DNA of 43,985 nt from a virus, in IMG/VR virus record IMGVR_UViG_3300032086_001355, positions 1 through 43,985 of that record; one strand, 5' to 3'. Under the pieces are notes generated by a model. It saw only the letters and a list, made by a program, of their open reading frames with translations. It was not told the origin of the DNA and did not search any database. Positions 1 through 43,985 of this stretch are shown one piece after another; the stretch's first letter is position 1, and each line of letters opens with the position of its first letter. The position numbers and the translations under genes were made by a program.

Positions 1-91
1 CACGGGCCGTCCGCGTGCGACTTTACGGCACGCGCTGATGAGGAGAAAATCATGGAAAATCGCAAAACGGTAACACCCACGCAGGTGAGTG
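1..91. repeat. terminal duplication, left copy
   Basis: These 91 bases are identical to the last 91 bases of the window. The copy starts inside stem III of a hammerhead ribozyme motif (complete at 43880-43937) and runs into the first small gene. A duplication that begins and ends at points without biological meaning is best read as assembly overlap of a circular or circularly permuted molecule. It is unlikely to be the true direct terminal repeat of the virion DNA, which in T7-like phages is normally longer and lies outside genes. Confidence 0.95.
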
Positions 92-434: not shown

Positions 435-787
435 AGGTGTTCAAATTCGATCCCGCGACTGGTCGCAGGGGCGAGCAAATCGACACGCGCAAGTGCATCG
501 ACTGGACCTCGGAGTACCTGCCCGTGGACTTCGAGCCACGCGGGTTCGGGACCGACGCGGAAGTGACGGTTCATCACGACGCAGGCGTGGGCATCGGTGA
601 GGATTCGTACAGCTATCGCTACCCGGATACGTGGATATGCTTCTGCTCGGGCGAATGGCACATGGGCGTGAATGACGACGGCACGCCAGAACGTCGCTGG
701 GTCTGGACGATCCTGCCTCCCGCGCCTGCTGATCCACGGCAGATCGACTACCCGCACGATAGCGACATCGACACCCGGTACACGTGA
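431..787 (+). CDS. early protein, 118 aa, unknown function
   Basis: Starts with GTG at 431 inside the stop of the upstream gene, with GAGGTG upstream in the duplicated cassette. The protein is rich in Trp, Asp, Tyr and Pro, has no membrane segment, and its C-terminal third is strongly acidic (DYPHDSDIDTRYT). It ends with TGA at 785-787, and those bases are followed at once by the CCGAAAC of a hammerhead ribozyme, so there is no spare intergenic sequence. No family recognised. Confidence 0.8.
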   Translation: MKVFKFDPATGRRGEQIDTRKCIDWTSEYLPVDFEPRGFGTDAEVTVHHDAGVGIGEDSYSYRYPDTWICFCSGEWHMGVNDDGTPERRWVWTILPPAPADPRQIDYPHDSDIDTRYT

Positions 788-841
788 CCGAAACCTGCTC
801 CGGCAGGTCCGCATGCGACGATACGGCATGCGCTGATGAGG
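788..841 (+). ncRNA. hammerhead ribozyme, type II, copy 2
   Basis: The conserved core is present: CC-GAAA (788-793), stem III ACCTGC/GCAGGT (793-798 with 803-808) closed by a TCCG loop of the UNCG class, cleavage triplet GTC ending at 809, stem I CGCATGC/GCATGCG (810-816 with 826-832) with loop GACGATACG, then CTGATGA (833-839) and GG. Stem II is open and limited to two G-C pairs (788-789 with 840-841). Cleavage is predicted between 809 and 810. The motif starts directly after the upstream TGA and its final GAGGA serves as ribosome binding site for the ATG at 849. The motif is directly visible; activity is not shown. Confidence 0.85.
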
Positions 842-848
842 AAATGAC

Positions 849-1687: not shown

Positions 1688-1745
1688 CCGAAACGCCGCT
1701 TCCACAGGGCGTACGTGCATGACGATACGATGCACGCTGATGAGG
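1688..1745 (+). ncRNA. hammerhead ribozyme, type II, copy 3 (GUA cleavage site)
   Basis: Core elements: CC-GAAA (1688-1693); stem III ACGCC, bulged G, CT, loop TCCAC, AG, GGCGT (1693-1712); cleavage triplet GTA ending at 1713; stem I CGTGCAT/ATGCACG (1714-1720 with 1730-1736) with the same GACGATACG loop as copy 2; CTGATGA (1737-1743) and GG. Stem II has two G-C pairs. GTA fits the NUH rule, although GUC is commoner. The downstream ATG at 1756 uses GAGGAGAG, the end of the motif, as its ribosome binding site. Confidence 0.85.
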
Positions 1746-1755
1746 AGAGTACACG

Positions 1756-3593: not shown

Positions 3594-3692
3594 GTGCCTG
3601 ATGCAGTGCTGATTCCGGTGGTCACGTGGGGGCTGGCCTTATGGCTGGCCCTCTACGTGGTGGAAATCGTATGGAAATGGTGGCAAAAATGA
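3594..3692 (+). CDS. tiny membrane protein, 32 aa
   Basis: GTG at 3594 opens a 32-residue frame made almost entirely of one hydrophobic segment (about residues 5-27, rich in Val, Leu, Ala and Trp) with a basic Trp-rich end (KWWQK). It ends with TGA overlapping the ATG of the next gene (ATGA). The upstream ribosome binding site is weak (AAGGTG, inside the previous gene), so coupled translation is likely. Function unknown. Confidence 0.55.
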   Translation: MPDAVLIPVVTWGLALWLALYVVEIVWKWWQK

Positions 3693-5087: not shown

Positions 5088-7508
5088 ATGACTGAACGTC
5101 AAGAGATGAGAGAATTAACCCAGTTAGATGAAGGTGTTAGAAGGTATCACCGTGAGGTTAGCAAGCAGGGTGCCGGAGAGACTACTGCTGGACTGGGTCT
5201 TGTGTATGTAGGGATGAAGGCATTGATCCCTGCCATCGAAGGGAACATTGCCCGCCTTGAGGAGGGAGGCAACGGCAACCTGCCATCGCAGGTACCACTG
5301 GCCTATCAGTACATGGTAGGCATGAAGGCAGATGCCATCGCATACATCGCAAGCAAGGTGGTGGTGTCGGCATCCGTGAACCGAGGCAAGCTGACCCGTA
5401 CCGCAATGCAGATTGCGAACCTGATCGAGGAGGACTACAGGTTCGAGGAACTGGAGCAGGCTGAACCTGCGCTGGCCAACAGCATGAGCAAGAAGGCGCA
5501 ACGCTGGAGCAGTAGCGGGGCACGTCGTCGCATCATGCGCAAGGCGGCACAGGTGGCAGGCATAGCCACGATGGGCTGGACTGAGGCTGAGAAACTGAAG
5601 CTGGGTGTCAAGCTGGTCGAGTTGTACATCGAGACAACGGGGCTGGCGCAGCTGGTCGAGACACAAGAGGGCAAGATGACCTTCAAGTTGATCGAGATGA
5701 CTGAGCTGGCAGCCGAGCGTCTGGCCTCACGACACGCAAGCCTTGAAGGTGAGCGTCCAGTGAACAAGCCGATGATCGCGCCGCCTAAACCGTGGACCTC
5801 ACCGATCTCGGGTGGGTACCTGACACCACGCATGAAGACTGACTTGGTGCGTGGCGTAGGGCAGGCCACACGTGACGAGGTGTTCAGCTGTGACATGCCG
5901 GAGGTGTACGCCGCAGTCAACAGGGTGCAGGCTACACCTTGGCGCATCAACGTGGGTGTACTCGACACCATGCAGGCAGTGTTCGACGAGGGTGGTACTC
6001 TCGGTGGCCTGCCGCAGGCTGACGACATGGCACTGCCCGAGCGGCCCGAGAGTATCGACCGCAAGTGCAGTCCTGATGACATGCCCGAGGACATGTGTGC
6101 CACGTTCAACGAGTGGAAGCAGGCAGCACGTGAGGTGCATGAGTTCAACGGTCAGCTTAAGAGCAAGCGACTGGCACTCATCACCAAGCTGAACATGGCA
6201 CAGGACGTGCGAGATGAGGAGTCGATCTGGTTCCCGCACTCGCTGGACTTCCGTGGCCGTGTGTACTCCATGACGACCGAGCTGTCACCGCAGGGTGATG
6301 ACATTGCCAAGAGCCTGATTGAATTCGGCAACGGCAAGGCACTCGGTGAGACTGGTGGTTACTGGCTGGCTGTACATATCGCCAACCTGTTCGGTGTCGA
6401 CAAGGTATCGTTCGATGACCGGGTGGAGTGGACGGTGACGCAGTCGGACAAGCTGGTCGAGTCTGCGATGAACCCGCTCGATGGCGACAGGTTCTGGGCC
6501 AAGGCCGATGACCCGTGGTGTGCGCTGGCCGCATGCTTCGAGTGGGCTGGCTTCCAGATCGAGGGTGATGACTACGTGTCTCACCTGCCCATCGCAATGG
6601 ACGGGTCATGCTCTGGCATCCAGCACTTCAGTGCCATGCTGAGGGATGCGGAGGGTGGACGTGCTGTCAACCTGACCAACCTCGACCAGCCCTCGGACAT
6701 CTACACTGAGGTGTTGTACGTGGTGCAGGATATGTTGGCAGAAAATTCTGACCCGCTTGCTAAGGTGTGGATGGACAAGGTGGATCGCAAGATCGTCAAG
6801 CGTCCGTGCATGACCTTCGCGTACTCGGTGACGAGCGTCGGGATCAGGGATCAGATCGCCAGTGAGATGCGCAAGCAGACTGACGGTCAGTACCTGCCGG
6901 GGCATGAGAACTGGCAGGCTGCCATGTTCCTCGCACCCATCGTCGAGGCTGCCATCAGGCAGGTGGTCAAGCGTGCAGCTGAGGCTATGGACTGGCTCAA
7001 GCTGGCGGCCAAGGCACTCACCGCCGAGGAGATACCTACATCTTGGGTGACTCCACTGGGATTCCCGGTAGTCCAGCCGTACCGCAAGGCCAAGGGTCAG
7101 CTGTTCAAGGTCTGGTTCCAAGGCCAGCGCATCAGGCTGACGCTGAGGGTGGAGAGCAGGACCATCGACGGACGCAAGCAAGCGTCGAGTGTGGCACCCA
7201 ACTTCGTACACTCACTGGATGCTACCCATCTGATGATGGTGGTGAACAGGTTGTACGACGAGGGCATCACACCCAACACGGCCATGATCCATGACTCGTT
7301 CGGAGTCCATGCCTGTGACGTGGATGAGCTGCACTACGTGATACGTGATGAGTTCATCAAGCTGTACTCGGAGGACATCCTCACCCGTACCTACCAGTCA
7401 ACACTGCTGGCACTGCCGGGTGACAAGTGGCCTGACCTGCCGACACCACCGGAAGCGGGCGACCTGAACCTTGAGGAGGTGCGTGATGCCGACTTCTTCT
7501 TCGCCTAA
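5088..7508 (+). CDS. single-subunit DNA-directed RNA polymerase (T7 gp1-like)
   Basis: T7-family RNA polymerase that transcribes the phage middle and late genes. At 806 residues it is shorter than T7's 883. Motif A is DGSCSGIQHFSAMLRD with catalytic Asp505; motif B is KRPCMTFAYS with Lys571 and Tyr579, the same spacing as T7 Lys631/Tyr639; motif C is HDSFG with catalytic Asp736. The specificity-loop region lies between PYRKAKGQ and APNFVHS and differs fully from T7, so its promoter will differ. The protein ends in DADFFFA, matching the conserved aromatic foot. It is the first large gene after the early block. Confidence 0.98.
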   Translation: MTERQEMRELTQLDEGVRRYHREVSKQGAGETTAGLGLVYVGMKALIPAIEGNIARLEEGGNGNLPSQVPLAYQYMVGMKADAIAYIASKVVVSASVNRGKLTRTAMQIANLIEEDYRFEELEQAEPALANSMSKKAQRWSSSGARRRIMRKAAQVAGIATMGWTEAEKLKLGVKLVELYIETTGLAQLVETQEGKMTFKLIEMTELAAERLASRHASLEGERPVNKPMIAPPKPWTSPISGGYLTPRMKTDLVRGVGQATRDEVFSCDMPEVYAAVNRVQATPWRINVGVLDTMQAVFDEGGTLGGLPQADDMALPERPESIDRKCSPDDMPEDMCATFNEWKQAAREVHEFNGQLKSKRLALITKLNMAQDVRDEESIWFPHSLDFRGRVYSMTTELSPQGDDIAKSLIEFGNGKALGETGGYWLAVHIANLFGVDKVSFDDRVEWTVTQSDKLVESAMNPLDGDRFWAKADDPWCALAACFEWAGFQIEGDDYVSHLPIAMDGSCSGIQHFSAMLRDAEGGRAVNLTNLDQPSDIYTEVLYVVQDMLAENSDPLAKVWMDKVDRKIVKRPCMTFAYSVTSVGIRDQIASEMRKQTDGQYLPGHENWQAAMFLAPIVEAAIRQVVKRAAEAMDWLKLAAKALTAEEIPTSWVTPLGFPVVQPYRKAKGQLFKVWFQGQRIRLTLRVESRTIDGRKQASSVAPNFVHSLDATHLMMVVNRLYDEGITPNTAMIHDSFGVHACDVDELHYVIRDEFIKLYSEDILTRTYQSTLLALPGDKWPDLPTPPEAGDLNLEEVRDADFFFA

Positions 7509-12714: not shown

Positions 12715-14727
12715 ATGAGAGTATTCGACATTGAGTCAGACGGACTCTTGCAGGGACAGACGGATGACGACCAAGTCATCACGAAGTTACACTGCATCAA
12801 CGGAATAGACCGCCGCACAGGTCGCGAGTTACGCTTCACTGACCACGAGTTCTATCAGGACCTCGATGGTAACTACACGTCCACCCGCACACCACGTGAC
12901 GGTGACCTGCAAGCAGGCATCGAGTGGCTGCGGGGTGACGAAACTGGTGGGCACAACATCATTGGCTATGACATCCCGGCGATCATGTACCTGTACCCTG
13001 ACGCTGACCTGAACCCTGTTGGGTTCGACAGTCAGGTACTCGGCAAGTTAGCCGTGCCCAACCTGAAGGACCACGACTTCGCGAACATCCGCAAGGGTAA
13101 GTTCGACAAGTCATTCCGTGCCGGGGCGAACACGCTCAAGTCATGGGGCATACGAGTAGGCAAGCACCTGAAGGCCGACTTCGATCCCAAGAACTACGGG
13201 CACACTTGGAAGACGATGCCGTTCACGCAGGAGATGGACGAGTACTGCATGGATGACGTGCGTACCAACGTGGACGTGATCGAGTTCCAAGAGAAACGAC
13301 TGGCTGACTGCCCCATCGCAGTACAGCTGGAGCTTGAGACTGCCGAGATCATCAAGTGGCAGGAGCGGGTAGGCATACGATTCAACACAGAGGCCGCAGA
13401 AGAACTGGCTCGCGAGCTGTACTCCAAGCAGCACGAGCTGGAACTCAAGGCCAGAGAGAGCTTCGCGCCCTTCTACAAGAAGGACGGCAAGCGTAAGGTC
13501 CCAGCGAAACCTCATCGTCGCTTCAAGGTTGACCAACGCGGTGCTGTCACACGAAAGGTGAAGGGCGCGGAGCAGCGGGGGTGGTGGTGTACGACTGTCG
13601 GTGAGCATCAGCCCATCGTCATGGTCGAGTTCAACCCCGGCTCACGTGTGCAGATCGAGAACAGGCTGAGGTGGAAGTACGACTGGGAACCCACTGAGCT
13701 GACGAAGGAAGGACGGGCGAAGATCGACGAGGAAACTCTCGGCTCGCTACCATTCCCCGAGACGCAGACCATCTCGGAATACATGACGGTGCAGAAGCGC
13801 CTGTCTCAACTGGCCGAGGGATCACAAGCGTGGCTCAAGGCTGTCAAGAAGAACGGGAGGATATATGGCCGTGTGGATCAACTTGGTACGGGGACCGGGC
13901 GCATGTCGCACTTCGGTCCTAATCTTGCTCAGGTTCCTAAGTCTGGTAAGCCTTATGGTCACGAGTGTCGCGGTCTGTTTATTGCTGATCCCGACCGTGT
14001 CATTGTGGGTTGTGACGCGGATGCTCTCGAACTACGTATCCTCGCCCATTTCCTTGCCCGCTTCGACGGGGGCGCTTACGTACAGACGGTACTCGATGGC
14101 AATAAAGAAGATGGGACGGACATGCACTCGCGCAATCGGGACGCTGTCGGCCTACTGCAACGAGACACTGCGAAGACGTGGTTCTATGCGTTCATCTACG
14201 GCGCTGCGGACTTCAAGCTGGGGACCGTCGTCATGTCCGAATGGGATGCCGACAAGCTCATCAAGTTCTACAAGGCGTTCCCACCCGGACAGCGCAGGCG
14301 TAGCAAGATCGTCGCAATCGGTAAGCGATCCCGCTCACGCCTCATGTCCTCACTACCTGCCTTCAAACGACTTGTCGACACAGTGCATGCTGCCGCCGAA
14401 CGGGGCTATCTGCATGGACTCGACAAGCGGCAGGTGCCAGTACGGGCGAAGCACTCTGCCCTTAACTTCCTCTGCCAAGGAGCAGGGGCACTCGTGATGA
14501 AGAAGGCACTGGTCATCATGTTCCAGAAGTACAGACAGGAGAAGTTGGATGTGCGTCCACTACTTAACGTACATGACGAGGTGCAGCACAGCACCCCAAG
14601 GGAGGAAGCAGAAGATGTTGGACGGATTGCAGCACAGGCGATCACCGAGGCAGGAGAATTCTTCGGACTTAGATGTCCACTTGCCGGGGACTATGCGGTC
14701 GGACTATCTTGGAACGAAACCCATTAG
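12715..14727 (+). CDS. DNA polymerase (T7 gp5-like, family A)
   Basis: Replicative polymerase of 670 residues (T7 gp5 has 704). The N-terminal 3'-5' exonuclease carries Exo I DIESDG (Asp5, Glu7) and a later YCMDDV segment resembling Exo III. The polymerase domain has RMSHFGPNLAQVP, motif A CDADALELR with catalytic Asp434, motif B RDTAKTWFYAFIYGA, and motif C VHDE with catalytic Asp621. The thumb region should bind host thioredoxin if the T7 model holds; that is not readable from sequence alone. ATG at 12715. Confidence 0.97.
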   Translation: MRVFDIESDGLLQGQTDDDQVITKLHCINGIDRRTGRELRFTDHEFYQDLDGNYTSTRTPRDGDLQAGIEWLRGDETGGHNIIGYDIPAIMYLYPDADLNPVGFDSQVLGKLAVPNLKDHDFANIRKGKFDKSFRAGANTLKSWGIRVGKHLKADFDPKNYGHTWKTMPFTQEMDEYCMDDVRTNVDVIEFQEKRLADCPIAVQLELETAEIIKWQERVGIRFNTEAAEELARELYSKQHELELKARESFAPFYKKDGKRKVPAKPHRRFKVDQRGAVTRKVKGAEQRGWWCTTVGEHQPIVMVEFNPGSRVQIENRLRWKYDWEPTELTKEGRAKIDEETLGSLPFPETQTISEYMTVQKRLSQLAEGSQAWLKAVKKNGRIYGRVDQLGTGTGRMSHFGPNLAQVPKSGKPYGHECRGLFIADPDRVIVGCDADALELRILAHFLARFDGGAYVQTVLDGNKEDGTDMHSRNRDAVGLLQRDTAKTWFYAFIYGAADFKLGTVVMSEWDADKLIKFYKAFPPGQRRRSKIVAIGKRSRSRLMSSLPAFKRLVDTVHAAAERGYLHGLDKRQVPVRAKHSALNFLCQGAGALVMKKALVIMFQKYRQEKLDVRPLLNVHDEVQHSTPREEAEDVGRIAAQAITEAGEFFGLRCPLAGDYAVGLSWNETH

Positions 14728-14746
14728 GTATCAGGGGATCGGCGGG

Positions 14747-15229
14747 ATGCAGACCAAGGACCCGGTCGAGAGACGTGAGTACTACACGTGGAACAACGCG
14801 ATCAAGCGTCTCTCGTACGGTATCGCAGGGAGCAGGAAGGCATACGATGCGCTCAACAAACAGGACCGCATTGATGTACGGACGGTGGCCAAGCAGCTGC
14901 ACGAGCTGGGCAAGGACATACCCACGGCTGTCGAAGCAGAGAAGACCAACAAGCAGGGGTTCGTGTACGTCATCACCAACAAGTCGGCGTTCCCCGGATT
15001 CGTGAAGATAGGCCGAGCGTTCAACCCGGAGTCACGGCTCAGGGGGTACCAGACAGGGTGCCCCTTCCGTGGCTACAGGCTGGCACATGCGGTGTACTTC
15101 CACGACTGTCATCAGGCAGAGCTTGAGATACACGCAAGGCTTGACCGCTTGCGCATGCGAGGCGAGTGGTTCAAGGTCACGAGTGACGAAGCAAGTCACG
15201 AAATCAACCAACTAAGAGAGGTCCTATAA
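14747..15229 (+). CDS. GIY-YIG-like nuclease domain protein (T5orf172/MUG113 type)
   Basis: The C-terminal half has the T5orf172/MUG113 signature: GFVYVITN, VKIGRAFNPESRL, AELEIHARL and GEWFKV. These parallel the Tyr, Arg, Glu and His of the GIY-YIG nuclease fold. The N-terminal 60 residues (YYTWNNAIKRLSYG) are a separate helical part. It sits between DNA polymerase and exonuclease, a common landing site for homing-type insertions, but no split gene is seen. ATG 14747 is 20 bases behind the polymerase stop; ATG 14693, overlapping the polymerase gene, is an alternative. Confidence 0.75.
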   Translation: MQTKDPVERREYYTWNNAIKRLSYGIAGSRKAYDALNKQDRIDVRTVAKQLHELGKDIPTAVEAEKTNKQGFVYVITNKSAFPGFVKIGRAFNPESRLRGYQTGCPFRGYRLAHAVYFHDCHQAELEIHARLDRLRMRGEWFKVTSDEASHEINQLREVL

Positions 15230-40028: not shown

Positions 40029-41774
40029 ATGAACACGTATCCCGTATGGGTGCAGACAGGTACCCACAAGAAGATGCACGACGACTTCAAGGTCTTCTTG
40101 TGGTGGCTCTGGAAGCAACTGGGACTACCCGACCCGACAGAAGCACAGTACGAGATCGCGGACTACCTTCAGTACGGCCCCAAGCGCCGGATCGTGATGG
40201 CGTTCCGTGGCGTAGGCAAGAGCTGGATCACAGCCGCCTTCGTCCTCTGGTGCCTCATGCGTAACCCGCAAGAGAAGATGATGGTGGTATCGGCCAGCGA
40301 GTACAAGGCTGCCGAGTTCTCCACGTTCACCAAGCAGCTCATCGAGACGCTCCCCCTGTTAAGCTGGCTACAAGCTCGCCCAAAGGACGGACAGCGTGAC
40401 TCGGTGCTTGCCTTCGACGTAGGACCCTCTACGCCCGCACAGGCTCCCTCAGTGCGAGCTGTGGGTGTTACCGGGCAGATGACTGGTGGTCGCGCCACGA
40501 AGGTGATCTTCGATGACATCGAGGTTCCCAACAACTCAGAGACTGAAGGCAAACGAGAGAAGCTGGACAACCGCGCCCGTGAAATGGGTGGTGCTATTCT
40601 GGTACCGGGCGGTGACTCCATTGGACTCGGCACTCCTCAGTCTACACAAACCATCTACAACGGGTTCAGTGAGCGCGGGTACAACCTGCGAGTCTGGCCT
40701 GCGAGGTATCCTGATGAAGAACAAATCCAAAAGTACCAAGGACGTTTGGCTCCCGGCATTCTTCGACGGCTCTCAGACGATAGTAGCTTGGTGGGACGAC
40801 CAGTCGATCCTGCTCGATTCCACGAAGAAGACTTGCTGGAGCGTGAAGCTGAGTATGGAAGAAGTGGATTCGCACTTCAGTTCATGCTCGACACCACACT
40901 CTCTGATGAGAATAGGTACCCGCTCAAACTGAGGGACCTGATCGTCATGGACGTGGACACCGAGCGTGCCCCTGCCCGTATCACGTGGGCAACCTCTGAG
41001 GCGCTCCCAGTGGACAACGTGGGACTCACAGGGGACAGGTACTACCTACCCATGAGCGTCTCCACGAAAGACGAGGACATGCTTCCCTACGAAGCCTCAG
41101 TCCTGTTCGTCGATCCCTCCGGGCGCGGCAAGGATGAGACTGCCTTCTGTGTGGCCAAGATGCTGCATGGACGGGTGTTCGTCAAACGCTGGGGCGGTTT
41201 CACAGGTAACGGTTACGACGAGGTCGTACTCGAAGCTCTGGCTACCATTGCCAAGAACGAGCAGGTGAACGAGGTGTGGACCGAGGACAACTTCGGTGAC
41301 GGCATGTTCAACGCCCTGTTCGCTCCTGTCCTGAACCGGATACATCCCTGTGGCCTTGACGGGTACCGGGTGTCCGGCCAGAAGGAAGCGAGGATGATCG
41401 ACAAGCTCGAACCTGTTATGAACAATCACAGGCTTGTCATTGATAAGTCCATCGTGGAACAACAGTTCAACAACCTGCCAGAAGACGCAGGAGAACGTGC
41501 CCGCTACTACAACCAGTTCTACCAGATGGCATTCGTCACACGTGACAGGGGTGCCCTCAAGCAGGACGATAGACTCGATGTCCTTGCAGAAGCTGTCGGT
41601 TACTTTACCTCGATGGTCGCCAGAGACACTGAGAGGGCCGCTGACAGGACTTCAGAGAAGCAGAAGGACAAGTCCCTTAAGGAGTTCATAAAGGCTGCCC
41701 AGCGTGGCCACACGAAGCGTGACCTGTATCCTGCACCCAAACGTAGGAAGGGTTCGTGGGCACGAAGGCGATAA
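40029..41774 (+). CDS. terminase large subunit (T7 gp19-like)
   Basis: 581 residues (T7 gp19 has 586). Walker A is FRGVGKSW (about residues 59-66), Walker B ATKVIFDDIE near 158, and the coupling region is GTPQSTQTIYN. The nuclease domain begins with VDPSGRGKDET near 358, and TEDNFGDGMF and DDRLDVLAEAV supply the other acidic residues. It powers DNA packaging and cuts concatemers. ATG at 40029 follows CGAGGAGAG. The C-terminus is basic (PAPKRRKGSWARRR), as expected for portal contact. Confidence 0.97.
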   Translation: MNTYPVWVQTGTHKKMHDDFKVFLWWLWKQLGLPDPTEAQYEIADYLQYGPKRRIVMAFRGVGKSWITAAFVLWCLMRNPQEKMMVVSASEYKAAEFSTFTKQLIETLPLLSWLQARPKDGQRDSVLAFDVGPSTPAQAPSVRAVGVTGQMTGGRATKVIFDDIEVPNNSETEGKREKLDNRAREMGGAILVPGGDSIGLGTPQSTQTIYNGFSERGYNLRVWPARYPDEEQIQKYQGRLAPGILRRLSDDSSLVGRPVDPARFHEEDLLEREAEYGRSGFALQFMLDTTLSDENRYPLKLRDLIVMDVDTERAPARITWATSEALPVDNVGLTGDRYYLPMSVSTKDEDMLPYEASVLFVDPSGRGKDETAFCVAKMLHGRVFVKRWGGFTGNGYDEVVLEALATIAKNEQVNEVWTEDNFGDGMFNALFAPVLNRIHPCGLDGYRVSGQKEARMIDKLEPVMNNHRLVIDKSIVEQQFNNLPEDAGERARYYNQFYQMAFVTRDRGALKQDDRLDVLAEAVGYFTSMVARDTERAADRTSEKQKDKSLKEFIKAAQRGHTKRDLYPAPKRRKGSWARRR

Positions 41775-42187: not shown

Positions 42188-42249
42188 TGGTGTGACACCA
42201 GAGGAGAGCCTCAAAGTTTTGCTATAGTTATCTGAACGGGGTTCATTAC

Positions 42250-42470
42250 GTGGACACGCCGCAGTGGCCCCCGTGCCTCCTTCCTATGCGCGTATCGCGG
42301 GGGGCCAGACCTGCCCGTTTCCCTGCCCGCGAACCTAATGCGCACCCGGCACGCGGCACCTGCCTGTACGCGGTTCGTTCATTATGAGGCACCCGGCAGG
42401 CACGGCACGTCGACGGGCAGGCACGGCACGCTATCCTATGCGGCACTCGCACCCGGCACCCGATATGTTT
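42250..42470. repeat. GC-rich degenerate repeat region (left part)
   Basis: Noncoding, GC-rich, built from variants of GGCACCC, GGCACGG and GGCAGGCACGGCACG, including ACCCGGCACGCGGCAC, AGGCACCCGGCAGGCACGG and GCAGGCACGGCACG. It is interrupted by a T-run and an AT island at 42468-42488. Together with the right part it sits between the last gene and the early region, where T7 carries its short-repeat arrays flanking the terminal repeat. Confidence 0.7.
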
Positions 42471-42501
42471 TTTTCGTATACATTATATGGCCGTCAAATT
42501 A

Positions 42502-42517
42502 GGGGGGGCCATTCCCA
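42502..42517 (+). repeat. G7 hairpin repeat, copy 7 (CCATTCCC variant)
   Basis: Seven G, CCA, TTCCC, AG. The arm differs from the other copies but still pairs with the G tract through G-T pairs, and the GGCCA at the centre is kept. It lies at the AT-rich junction between the two GC repeat arrays. Confidence 0.75.
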
Positions 42518-42522
42518 GTAGA

Positions 42523-42692
42523 CTACCAGTCGACGGCACGGCACCCGGCACGGCACCCGGCACGGCACCCGGCACGATAGCGGGCAGGGTGCTACCAGTC
42601 GACGGCACGGCACCCGGCAGGCAGGCAGGCAGGCACCCGGCAGGCACGGCAAGGGTGCCGGAAAGGGTGCGCAAGGGTGCCGGAAAGGGTGC
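42523..42692. repeat. tandem repeat arrays near the probable genome end
   Basis: Three layers are visible. The 12-mer GGCACGGCACCC is present three times and a half (42535-42576). A 28-base unit starting CTACCAGTCGACGG occurs at 42523-42550 and 42592-42619. GGCA is repeated five times around 42615-42635. Then AAGGGTGCCGGAAAGGGTGC occurs twice with period 22 (42651-42670, 42673-42692). The GGGTGC units are the reverse complement of the GCACCC units, so the single strand can fold into long hairpins. I infer a role like T7 SRL/SRR in concatemer processing. Confidence 0.8.
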
Positions 42693-43232
42693 CTGATAGC
42701 GGGATTATTGCGGGAATTCGGCCAGAATTCGGGCAGGGTGCCGATTATTTCCAAACTAAAATCACCCATAATTCAGTCACTTAGCAGCAATCGGCCATTT
42801 ATTTCCAGAAAAGGCTTGCAATAATCTGGCACGGCGCTAATCTGGGAACCGTCGACGGCCAGCGGATTCTTGGCCACCGGGTTACAAGCCGCACCGTCGA
42901 TCATCCCTGACCGGGAAATGAGCTTGCGGGAATGACCCGCTTCAGAACGGTCGCGAAGGGATACGGGAATATGCTCCAGCGCATTCGACTGGAAACACGG
43001 CACCCGCGAATTAAGCCGCCATCACGTGAGACTTGGGAAGTCGGGAAGCGTGCGAGTAAGTAGAAAATCCGCTGGGAAGTTGACAGTGTTCGCACGTGGA
43101 ATGATCTGGCCGACCGGGCGAAACATTGGAACCCACGTGTAACCCGCTCACATGGCACATGCGTGAGAATTCCGTGCCTGCCTTGATTGGATTCTGGCCG
43201 GAAGTGTACCGCGTCCGTGTTGCATGTGAGCG
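42693..43232. other. noncoding region between repeat arrays and early genes
   Basis: No convincing gene on the + strand. A nested hairpin is present at 42909-42952 (GACCG/CGGTC around GCGGG-AATGA-CCCGC), and GGCCA/TGGCC at about 42860-42877. A TTGACA hexamer stands at 43080-43085 without a good -10 at normal spacing. On the minus strand a 76-codon frame (42773-43003, GTG start) is open but lacks a clear ribosome binding site. By T7 analogy this should hold the true terminal repeat boundary and the host-type early promoters, neither of which I can pin down. Confidence 0.5.
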
Positions 43233-43287
43233 TAGTCGCGCACTGGATTGTATCGTGCGCCTGATGAGGCCCAGCAGGCCGAAACTA
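43233..43287 (+). ncRNA. hammerhead ribozyme, type III, copy 5
   Basis: Elements in order: TAGT (43233-43236), cleavage C43237, stem I GCGCAC/GTGCGC (43238-43243 with 43255-43260) with loop TGGATTGTATC, CTGATGA (43261-43267), stem II GGCC-CAGCA-GGCC (43268-43280), GAAA (43281-43284), and stem III ACTA (43284-43287) pairing with TAGT. All conserved core positions are met. Stem III is the open one and has only four pairs. It is the first of the five in transcription order, 21 bases before the ATG at 43309. Cleavage is predicted between 43237 and 43238. Confidence 0.85.
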
Positions 43288-43308
43288 ACTGAAAATTGGA
43301 GAAATACC

Positions 43309-43497
43309 ATGGCAAATCTCACGAATGAACAACGCAGCGCAATCCTGTCCGCACGTGCCAAGAATCGCAAGGCCGCGATTGCATTGCAGTCGGTCGAACT
43401 GGACGTGCCTAAGGCAGTCGCGGCTCACATGCGTGCAGTCGAGGATTGGGCAAACAAGGCGCTCGCACCCGCTGCGAAAGCCAAGAAAACCGCGTAA
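43309..43497 (+). CDS. first early protein, 62 aa, basic
   Basis: ATG at 43309 follows TTGGAGAAA, downstream of the type III hammerhead; the same frame is open upstream but runs through the ribozyme and is not credible as protein. The product starts MANLTNEQRSAILSARAK, is helical and basic, and ends in Lys/Ala-rich sequence (AAKAKKTA). It is the first gene behind the presumed early promoter region, the place of T7 gene 0.3, but shows no likeness to Ocr, which is acidic. Function unknown. Confidence 0.75.
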   Translation: MANLTNEQRSAILSARAKNRKAAIALQSVELDVPKAVAAHMRAVEDWANKALAPAAKAKKTA

Positions 43498-43504
43498 CAC
43501 GTGA

Positions 43505-43572
43505 CCGAAACGCGCACCCTGCACATGCGGGGTGTCGCGTCCGTGTCCCACGTATCGGGCACGCTGATGAGG
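43505..43572 (+). ncRNA. hammerhead ribozyme, type II, copy 4 (long stem III)
   Basis: CC-GAAA (43505-43510); stem III ACGCG/CGCGT continued by CACCC/GGGTG and a short inner stem, with one bulged T (43510-43540); cleavage triplet GTC ending at 43541; stem I CGTGTCC/GGGCACG (one G-T pair; 43542-43548 with 43557-43563); CTGATGA (43564-43570) and GG. Stem II has two G-C pairs. The loop of stem I (CACGTATC) differs from the other copies. GAGGATAGGA at its end serves the ATG at 43581. Confidence 0.82.
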
Positions 43573-43580
43573 ATAGGAAA

Positions 43581-43727
43581 ATGGCAAAATCGAATAGCAG
43601 TCACCGCGTGCAATCCCGCGCACGTTACGCCGCCGAAACACTGGCAGATACCCGCGCACGCTCGAACGTCGACTGGGTCGCGCTGCGTGCCGAAAATGAC
43701 CGTCGCGCCAAGCTGGCACGCTCGTGA
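43581..43727 (+). CDS. early basic protein, 48 aa
   Basis: ATG at 43581 follows GGATAGGA from the hammerhead end. The protein is very basic (HRVQSRARYAAETLADTRAR; ENDRRAKLARS) and helical, compatible with nucleic-acid binding. Its stop overlaps the next GTG start (GTGA). Function unknown. Confidence 0.7.
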   Translation: MAKSNSSHRVQSRARYAAETLADTRARSNVDWVALRAENDRRAKLARS

Positions 43728-43879
43728 GTCGTCGCCTGAATTGGGCCAACGCGGCCACGTCGCGACTGGCACGCAAGGCGGCTCGTACGCCGTCACGGAT
43801 ACCCGCGAAGGGTTCATACCTGCACGACCTCACGTGCGACATCGTGGCCAAGCGCAATGCGCGACTGGCCGCCAAGTGA
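43724..43879 (+). CDS. early basic protein, 51 aa
   Basis: GTG at 43724 overlaps the previous TGA. The 51-residue product (MSRRLNWANAATSRLARKA..., ending AKRNARLAAK) has many Arg and Lys and few acidic residues. It resembles its upstream neighbour in composition. The stop TGA (43877-43879) is followed at once by the CCGAAAC of the next hammerhead, as at 785-787. Function unknown. Confidence 0.65.
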   Translation: MSRRLNWANAATSRLARKAARTPSRIPAKGSYLHDLTCDIVAKRNARLAAK

Positions 43880-43937
43880 CCGAAACGGTGCCTACACGGG
43901 CCGTCCGCGTGCGACTTTACGGCACGCGCTGATGAGG
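43880..43937 (+). ncRNA. hammerhead ribozyme, type II, copy 1
   Basis: CC-GAAA (43880-43885); stem III ACGGT, bulged G, CC, loop TACAC, GG, GCCGT (43885-43904, one G-T pair); cleavage triplet GTC ending at 43905; stem I CGCGTGC/GCACGCG (43906-43912 with 43922-43928) with loop GACTTTACG; CTGATGA (43929-43935) and GG. Stem II has two G-C pairs. Stem III has exactly the bulge and loop plan of copy 3 with different bases. It serves the gene starting at 43946, identical to 52. The part from 43895 is duplicated at window position 1. Confidence 0.85.
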
Positions 43938-43985
43938 AGAAAATCATGGAAAATCGCAAAACGGTAACACCCACGCAGGTGAGTG
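43895..43985. repeat. terminal duplication, right copy
   Basis: Exact copy of bases 1-91; see the left copy. Joining the ends gives one continuous early region, with the ribozyme at 43880 complete and the gene starting at 43946 continuing as the one at 52. Confidence 0.95.
43946..43985 (+). CDS. 5' fragment of the 53-aa early gene (same as 52-213)
   Basis: ATG at 43946 and the first 13 codons are the same gene as at 52; it is cut by the window end. It should not be counted as a second gene. Confidence 0.8.
   Translation, partial: MENRKTVTPTQVS

Follow-up and report, generated by a model that had tools for sequence, protein, structure and literature searches.

We found that type II hammerhead ribozymes (HHRs) lying between the early genes of an uncultured phage probably act as self-processing sites at which the early transcript is cut between cistrons, with the catalytic core of each doubling as the Shine-Dalgarno (SD) sequence of the gene downstream. 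The window, meaning the whole stretch of DNA analyzed here, is 43,985 nucleotides long and represents one virus record (IMGVR_UViG_3300032086_001355). Its ends share 91 nt (positions 1-91 are identical to 43895-43985), which makes the map either circular or terminally redundant.

Hammerhead ribozymes in the early region of a T7-like phage

By sequence comparison, the phage is assigned to the T7-like (Autographiviridae-type) group. Besides the two genes listed here, the window codes for primase-helicase, DNA polymerase, portal, capsid and nozzle proteins.

5088-7508: T7-like RNA polymerase gene
40029-41774: large terminase gene (TerL), about 50% identity to Autographiviridae terminases

Early genes of T7-like phages occupy the interval from TerL to the RNA polymerase gene, and in this interval we identified five hammerhead motifs, one of type III and four of type II. 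The intergenic space in the early-gene gaps is almost entirely ribozyme. A scan of the leader for sigma-70 promoters gave no match.

Other features of the window were recorded alongside. Roughly 1 kb after TerL (42200-43230) is dense in short GGCACCCGGCAC / CGGCACGGCACC repeats, is followed by the type III HHR, and is possibly a genome end or packaging region. The element GGGGGGGCCANNCCC occurs in six exact copies plus two with 1-2 mismatches, where about one would be expected (positions 1661, 4996, 8048, 9956, 16763, 41845 and 42502), with one copy just upstream of HHR copy C; it is common only to the window and its close relative L119, and a phage promoter or hairpin signal is a possible identity. 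An ORF between the DNA polymerase and downstream genes (14549-15229) contains a T5orf172/MUG113 (GIY-YIG-like) domain and possibly encodes a homing endonuclease.

Four type II copies with complete cores

The original prediction had counted four type II copies, and we recovered all of them, with copy A where it had been placed:

43880-43938 (+): type II HHR copy A (structural scan, pattern and Rfam)
1-54 (+): partial copy A (3' part and start codon), terminal duplicate
788-842 (+): type II HHR copy B; predicted cut after 809; SD 839-842; start codon 849-851
785-787 (+): UGA stop before copy B, ending a 118-codon ORF (431-787)
1688-1746 (+): type II HHR copy C, with a GUA cleavage triplet; predicted cut after 1713; SD 1743-1747; start codon 1756-1758
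43505-43573 (+): type II HHR copy D; predicted cut after 43541; SD 43570-43573; start codon 43581-43583
43495-43497 (+): UAA gene stop before copy D

The pattern CCGAAACN{10,30}GTHN{18,30}CTGATGAGGA gave four matches, all on the + strand, and none in 100 dinucleotide shuffles. A structural scan requiring pairing returned the same four copies only, and found none in 200 Markov-simulated windows. An Rfam profile search detected one type II copy (Hammerhead_II, RF02276; 43878-43945, 32.3 bits, E 0.0082); this score for copy A falls under the gathering score of 37, which is a curation threshold rather than a mechanistic requirement. The hammerhead core (C3U4G5A6N7G8A9, G12A13A14, A15.1-U16.1, G10.1-C11.1 and H17) is complete in 4/4 copies and in their relatives, with C at H17, or A in copy C. 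The type II topology is likewise present: stems I (7 bp) and III (5-7 bp) are closed by loops, and stem II (2 bp) is open. The proposed type II identity agrees with every sequence and covariation test available, at an Rfam score below the gathering threshold. The parts of copy A are arranged as follows:

43877-43879 (+): UGA stop before copy A, touching stem II; ends an ORF of about 51 codons (about 43724-43879)
43880-43881 (+): C11.2-C11.1 (CC)
43882-43884 (+): G12A13A14
43885 to 43904 (+): stem III, from A15.1 to U16.1
43905 (+): H17 (C43905), with the predicted cut after it
43906-43912/43922-43928 (+): stem I, 7 bp
43929-43935 (+): core CUGAUGA
43936-43937 (+): right strand of stem II, GG (G10.1-G10.2)
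43934-43939 (+): SD GAGGAG (G8, A9, G10.1, G10.2 plus AG)
43946-43948 (+): AUG of a 53-codon gene, which continues over the window ends as 52-213

The two G residues that had been claimed for stem II are indeed the right strand of this 2-bp helix, and the predicted cut would, as proposed, leave the upstream RNA ending in hairpin III and the downstream RNA starting with hairpin I. The described link to stop codons also holds: TGA directly precedes CC-GAAA in copies A (43877-43879) and B (785-787), and in copy D the string TGACCGAAAC begins 4 nt past the TAA at 43495-43497. Copy C carries TTACCGAAAC, and its upstream stop is 29 nt off. The distance from stop to HHR is 0 in A and B, 7 nt in D and 29 nt in C.

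The core overlaps the Shine-Dalgarno sequence of the next gene

G8-A9-G10.1-G10.2, drawn from core and stem II, form GAGGA(G) with the bases that follow, and this is the sole SD of each of the four downstream genes. CTGATGAGGA had been predicted to supply the GAGGA site in every copy, and it does so in 4/4; the spacing of 8-11 nt given with that prediction was slightly too long, as the start codon lies 7-10 nt from the second G and 6-9 nt from the A of GAGGA (9-12 nt from G10.1). For the four genes, the duplex of the fused SD with the 16S tail has a calculated energy of -6.3 to -9.8 kcal/mol with a spacer of 6-8 nt, and in duplex energy and spacing the fused SDs equal or beat those of most of 21 other genes of the same phage. 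The best duplex of copy A, at -9.4 kcal/mol, uses AGGAG with a spacer of 6.

Both CUGA(U/C)GAGG and the AUG are invariant across 16 homologous HHRs. The small downstream proteins are homologous across four phages, and their alignments run from Met1 while gene order varies; Met1 alignments despite differing gene order indicate that the start codons are genuine and that the units behave like HHR-gene cassettes. These data support a dual role in which the core and stem II strand would double as the SD of the next gene.

The type II hammerheads are conserved more strongly than their flanks

We compared the window with a near-identical relative (L119), whose RNA polymerase is 97% identical to that of the window. 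Within the type II HHRs, 251 nt in all, the two differ at 3 sites: two of these turn a stem I pair of copy C from A-U into C-G, a compensatory change, and the third lies in loop III. Adjacent coding sequence has diverged by 2.4-6.2%, and the leader by 10.6%. The type II HHRs diverge more slowly than their flanks. L119 and three more divergent phages (L046, L016 and L249) carry TerL, the type III leader HHR, and type II HHRs with the same SD fusion. Across 14 HHRs of this family, 97.3% of pair cells hold standard pairs and 10 pairs show two-sided changes, which occur in 47 cells compared with 15.1 in shuffles; slid-alignment controls were 23-45% paired. Since stem II is invariant in the window family, the case for its pairing comes from the established hammerhead fold and not from covariation. 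That the motifs are decayed relics without activity, as Rfam scores under the gathering thresholds might suggest, is scarcely credible given their complete cores, the compensatory change between close relatives, and a divergence slower than that of the flanks.

Through a cassette protein we found two more phages, L488 (4941-5596) and L489 (2998-3599), that have the same first gene as the window phage. The type II HHRs at the equivalent site there are canonical: stem II reads GU, a pseudoknot to the 3' tail (UGGU:ACCA) is present, and the SD, GGGAG, stands apart. Together with the window family, these two phages provide a natural comparison of fused and canonical design. Some of their HHRs have UU^ cleavage triplets. 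A BLAST search with the HHR region gave no match among 50,697 phage records, and neither did tblastn with one cassette protein against phage records; short HHR queries returned only chance-like matches of 19-27 nt, which we discarded.

A type III hammerhead in the leader

The first early gene is preceded by a hammerhead of the other type:

43227-43290 (+): type III HHR, leader of the first early gene; predicted cut after 43237; gene start 43309

Rfam reports Hammerhead_3 at 43230-43290 with 29.4 bits (gathering score 48.5). This HHR is followed by an ordinary, separate SD (GGAG), and a type III leader HHR is found at the equivalent site in L119, L016, L046, L249, L488 and L489. In L046 (- strand, about 3620-3690, equal to L492 7421-7461) its stem II is cut to about one pair, and GAUACCCC is the sequence between the core and GAAA in L046/L492. 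Of seven named Autographiviridae near the window TerL, none has a type II HHR; Caulobacter phage S2B (L486) alone has a type III motif, in its early region (44989-45033, - strand).

No computed support for strong hiding of the ribosome site

The original prediction held that folding hides the ribosome site and that cleavage may free it. Two to three SD bases do fall within stem II of the uncut ribozyme, but the nearest-neighbor model gives this 2-bp helix no net stability (about +0.8 kcal/mol in copies A, C and D), and the SD accessibility computed by nearest-neighbor folding is nearly equal before and after cutting. Nearest-neighbor energies thus do not support strong hiding of the SD through secondary structure, and a strong translational switch is not predicted. 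Occlusion of the SD could arise only through the tertiary fold. The SD includes G8 and A9, so a 30S subunit and the folded ribozyme could not share the RNA; the fold and 16S pairing, which both need G8, A9 and G10.1/G10.2, would be mutually exclusive.

The same calculations also suit a plainer reading, in which the HHRs process the transcript, the fixed core UGAUGAGG happens to work as an SD, and cleavage alters RNA ends or stability and not initiation. We give this reading a real, if minority, chance. It fits a core that itself includes GAG(G) and a crowded genome whose gaps are nearly all ribozyme. It sits less well with the overlap of the SD with G8 and A9, which makes ribosome binding and folding unlikely to be independent, and with the fact that fused HHRs seem to have lost the 3'-tail pseudoknot (see below), which suggests adaptation to a dual role.

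A separate lineage (L019, L044 and L081) has its entire SD (GGAG) paired with CUCC in a 4-bp stem II, and in folding energies it is the best candidate for true SD hiding.

SD fusion recurs in a survey of phage type II hammerheads

We surveyed IMG/VR by three pattern scans with a structure filter, which yielded at least 287 type II HHR clusters. Among the matches listed, 114 of 261 clusters have the stop of an upstream ORF no more than 3 nt from C11.1, and by this sequence measure stop adjacency is general for phage type II HHRs. An ATG 7-14 nt past G10.1 occurs in 13/41 clusters with a GGA stem II compared with 15/207 others (p=7e-5 among the matches listed; p=0.018, also among the matches listed, with the window superfamily counted once). 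SD fusion is also seen in several further phage HHR lineages that seem unrelated to that of the window (L019/L044/L081, L037, L060 and L413, with L008/L034 weaker). L008/L045 counted as no more than a weak case of fusion, its AUG lying 0-3 nt from stem II. A scan of genome contigs gave nearly all chance pattern matches and one convincing HHR, that of L413.

Seven IMG/VR contigs (L185, L319, L140, L149, L050, L047 and L068) carry 5-10 serial type II HHRs, about one per gene gap, and in many of them the stop codon lies within stem II (for example TAG-GCC in L050).

Loop I appears to pair over the stop codon

Loop I of canonical type II HHRs pairs with the 3' tail (Perreault et al. 2011; PMC3088659). 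Our survey agrees: among the matches listed, loop I of 259 canonical HHRs pairs with the 3' tail (z=16.4) and not with the 5' flank (z=-1.0), a pseudoknot that is common among type II HHRs and not universal. The 13 fused GGA HHRs among the matches listed show the opposite (5' flank z=3.1, 3' tail z=0.8). Permutation within the window family gave p=0.036 for pairing of loop I with the 5' flank, and no excess of pairing with the 3' tail (p=0.77).

43874-43877 (+): 5' strand (AAGU) of the proposed copy A pseudoknot, pairing with loop I ACUU at 43914-43917

In copies A and B the proposed pseudoknot includes the U of the UGA stop, which in A is its last paired base. Throughout the window family, [A/C]GU in the 5' flank pairs with AC[U/G] in loop I, with both A-U and C-G variants seen; longer versions occur in L037 (AGGCG:CGCCU) and L034 (AGCCA:UGGCU), and the 5'-flank pseudoknot was not seen in the fused lineages L019/L081 and L060. 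The helix is only 3-5 bp, the members are not independent, and its covariation may reflect few independent changes. With this caveat, there is moderate support for an apparent contact of loop I with the 5' flank, over the stop codon, in HHRs with a fused SD. This apparent relocation of the tertiary contact to the stop-codon side is new relative to the original prediction.

The position of the stop codon raises a further alternative, in which ribosomes that terminate at the adjacent stop or initiate at the SD keep the HHR unfolded; cleavage would then mark RNA that is not being translated and tie processing to the translation of neighboring genes. Frequent stop adjacency, the U shared by UGA and pseudoknot in A and B, and the overlap of SD and core would all suit such gating. 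We nonetheless consider it unlikely: HHRs of this kind can fold and cut fast (>1.2 per min for one type II example; PMC3088659), and stop adjacency may be mere compact packing, with the stops of C and D 7-29 nt away.

Discussion

We favor self-processing of the early transcript, with the core doubling as SD. Cleavage itself, its timing, and its effects on translation and stability are what we infer from the arrangement. Co-transcriptional cuts would split the early polycistron into short mRNAs, each cut falling between a stop and the next start. The upstream mRNA would end in UGA-CCGAAA-hairpin III-2',3'-cyclic phosphate, and the downstream mRNA would begin with 5'-OH-hairpin I-CUGAUGAGGAG-AUG, a leader of about 40 nt. 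A folding ribozyme and an incoming 30S subunit would compete for identical nucleotides. After the cut, only the 2-bp stem II and tertiary contacts would hold the halves, and irreversible separation would be expected, leaving the SD in a short, hairpin-capped leader. The pseudoknot may have shifted to the 5' flank, over the stop codon, so that the 3' tail stays free for the ribosome. A 5' hairpin or a bound ribosome can stabilize bacterial mRNA (PMC3997798). In other prophages, tandem HHRs have been shown to cut in vitro, and one set did so in E. coli; processing by phage HHR clusters into single-gene mRNAs was proposed in the same work (PMC3088659).

The predicted ends also suit RNA circularization or ligation, in which an RtcB-type ligase would join the 5'-OH and 2',3'-cyclic phosphate ends left by paired cuts, and several HHRs flank each gene or gene block. 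This is very improbable, as there is no ligase among the window proteins tested (a subset of ORFs), and circles or spliced products were undetected for other prophage HHRs (PMC3088659).

Extending the self-processing reading, we tentatively suggest that termination, self-cleavage and initiation might compete for one element of about 70 nt. The core would have been recruited as SD in several phage lineages, with the pseudoknot on the stop codon, and each early gene would be a minimal mRNA whose UTRs are both hammerhead halves. We hold this wider proposal to be possible, if doubtful.

The window copies share their core, the type II permutation and an open stem II of about 2 bp with the known type II HHRs of bacteria and phages (RF02276; PMC3088659), which are likewise clustered around single phage genes. 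They differ in that their core and stem II right strand form the SD, at the AUG spacing given above, and in that the apparent partner of loop I is the 5' flank, over the stop, and not the 3' tail. The text of PMC3088659, when searched within the open-access literature, mentions neither the ribosome nor Shine-Dalgarno. Engineered bacterial hammerhead and twister switches (PMC5052635) are likewise self-cleaving ribozymes containing an SD, in which cleavage can alter ribosome access. Those switches are designed and ligand-controlled, with the SD in a peripheral stem, whereas the window HHRs are natural, have the catalytic core itself in the SD, and have no evident ligand site. Type II HHRs, a short stem II, pseudoknots, clustering at phage genes and engineered SD-containing ribozymes were thus already known; the natural fusion of core and SD, with an apparently relocated pseudoknot, looks new against the open-access literature.

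In T7, RNase III makes intercistronic cuts in the early polycistron and leaves hairpins at the new ends. In the window phage, by contrast, the RNA itself is the predicted cutter, the ends would be 5'-OH and 2',3'-cyclic phosphate, and the cut element doubles as the ribosome binding site.

The arrangement described here offers a concrete, testable job for phage hammerheads. Because ribozyme, stop codon and ribosome binding site share their nucleotides, cleavage, ribosome binding and folding can be told apart with a single set of point mutants. Should the competition prove real, these elements would be a natural counterpart of a synthetic-biology switch and, in a T7-like phage, an RNA-only equivalent of RNase III processing.
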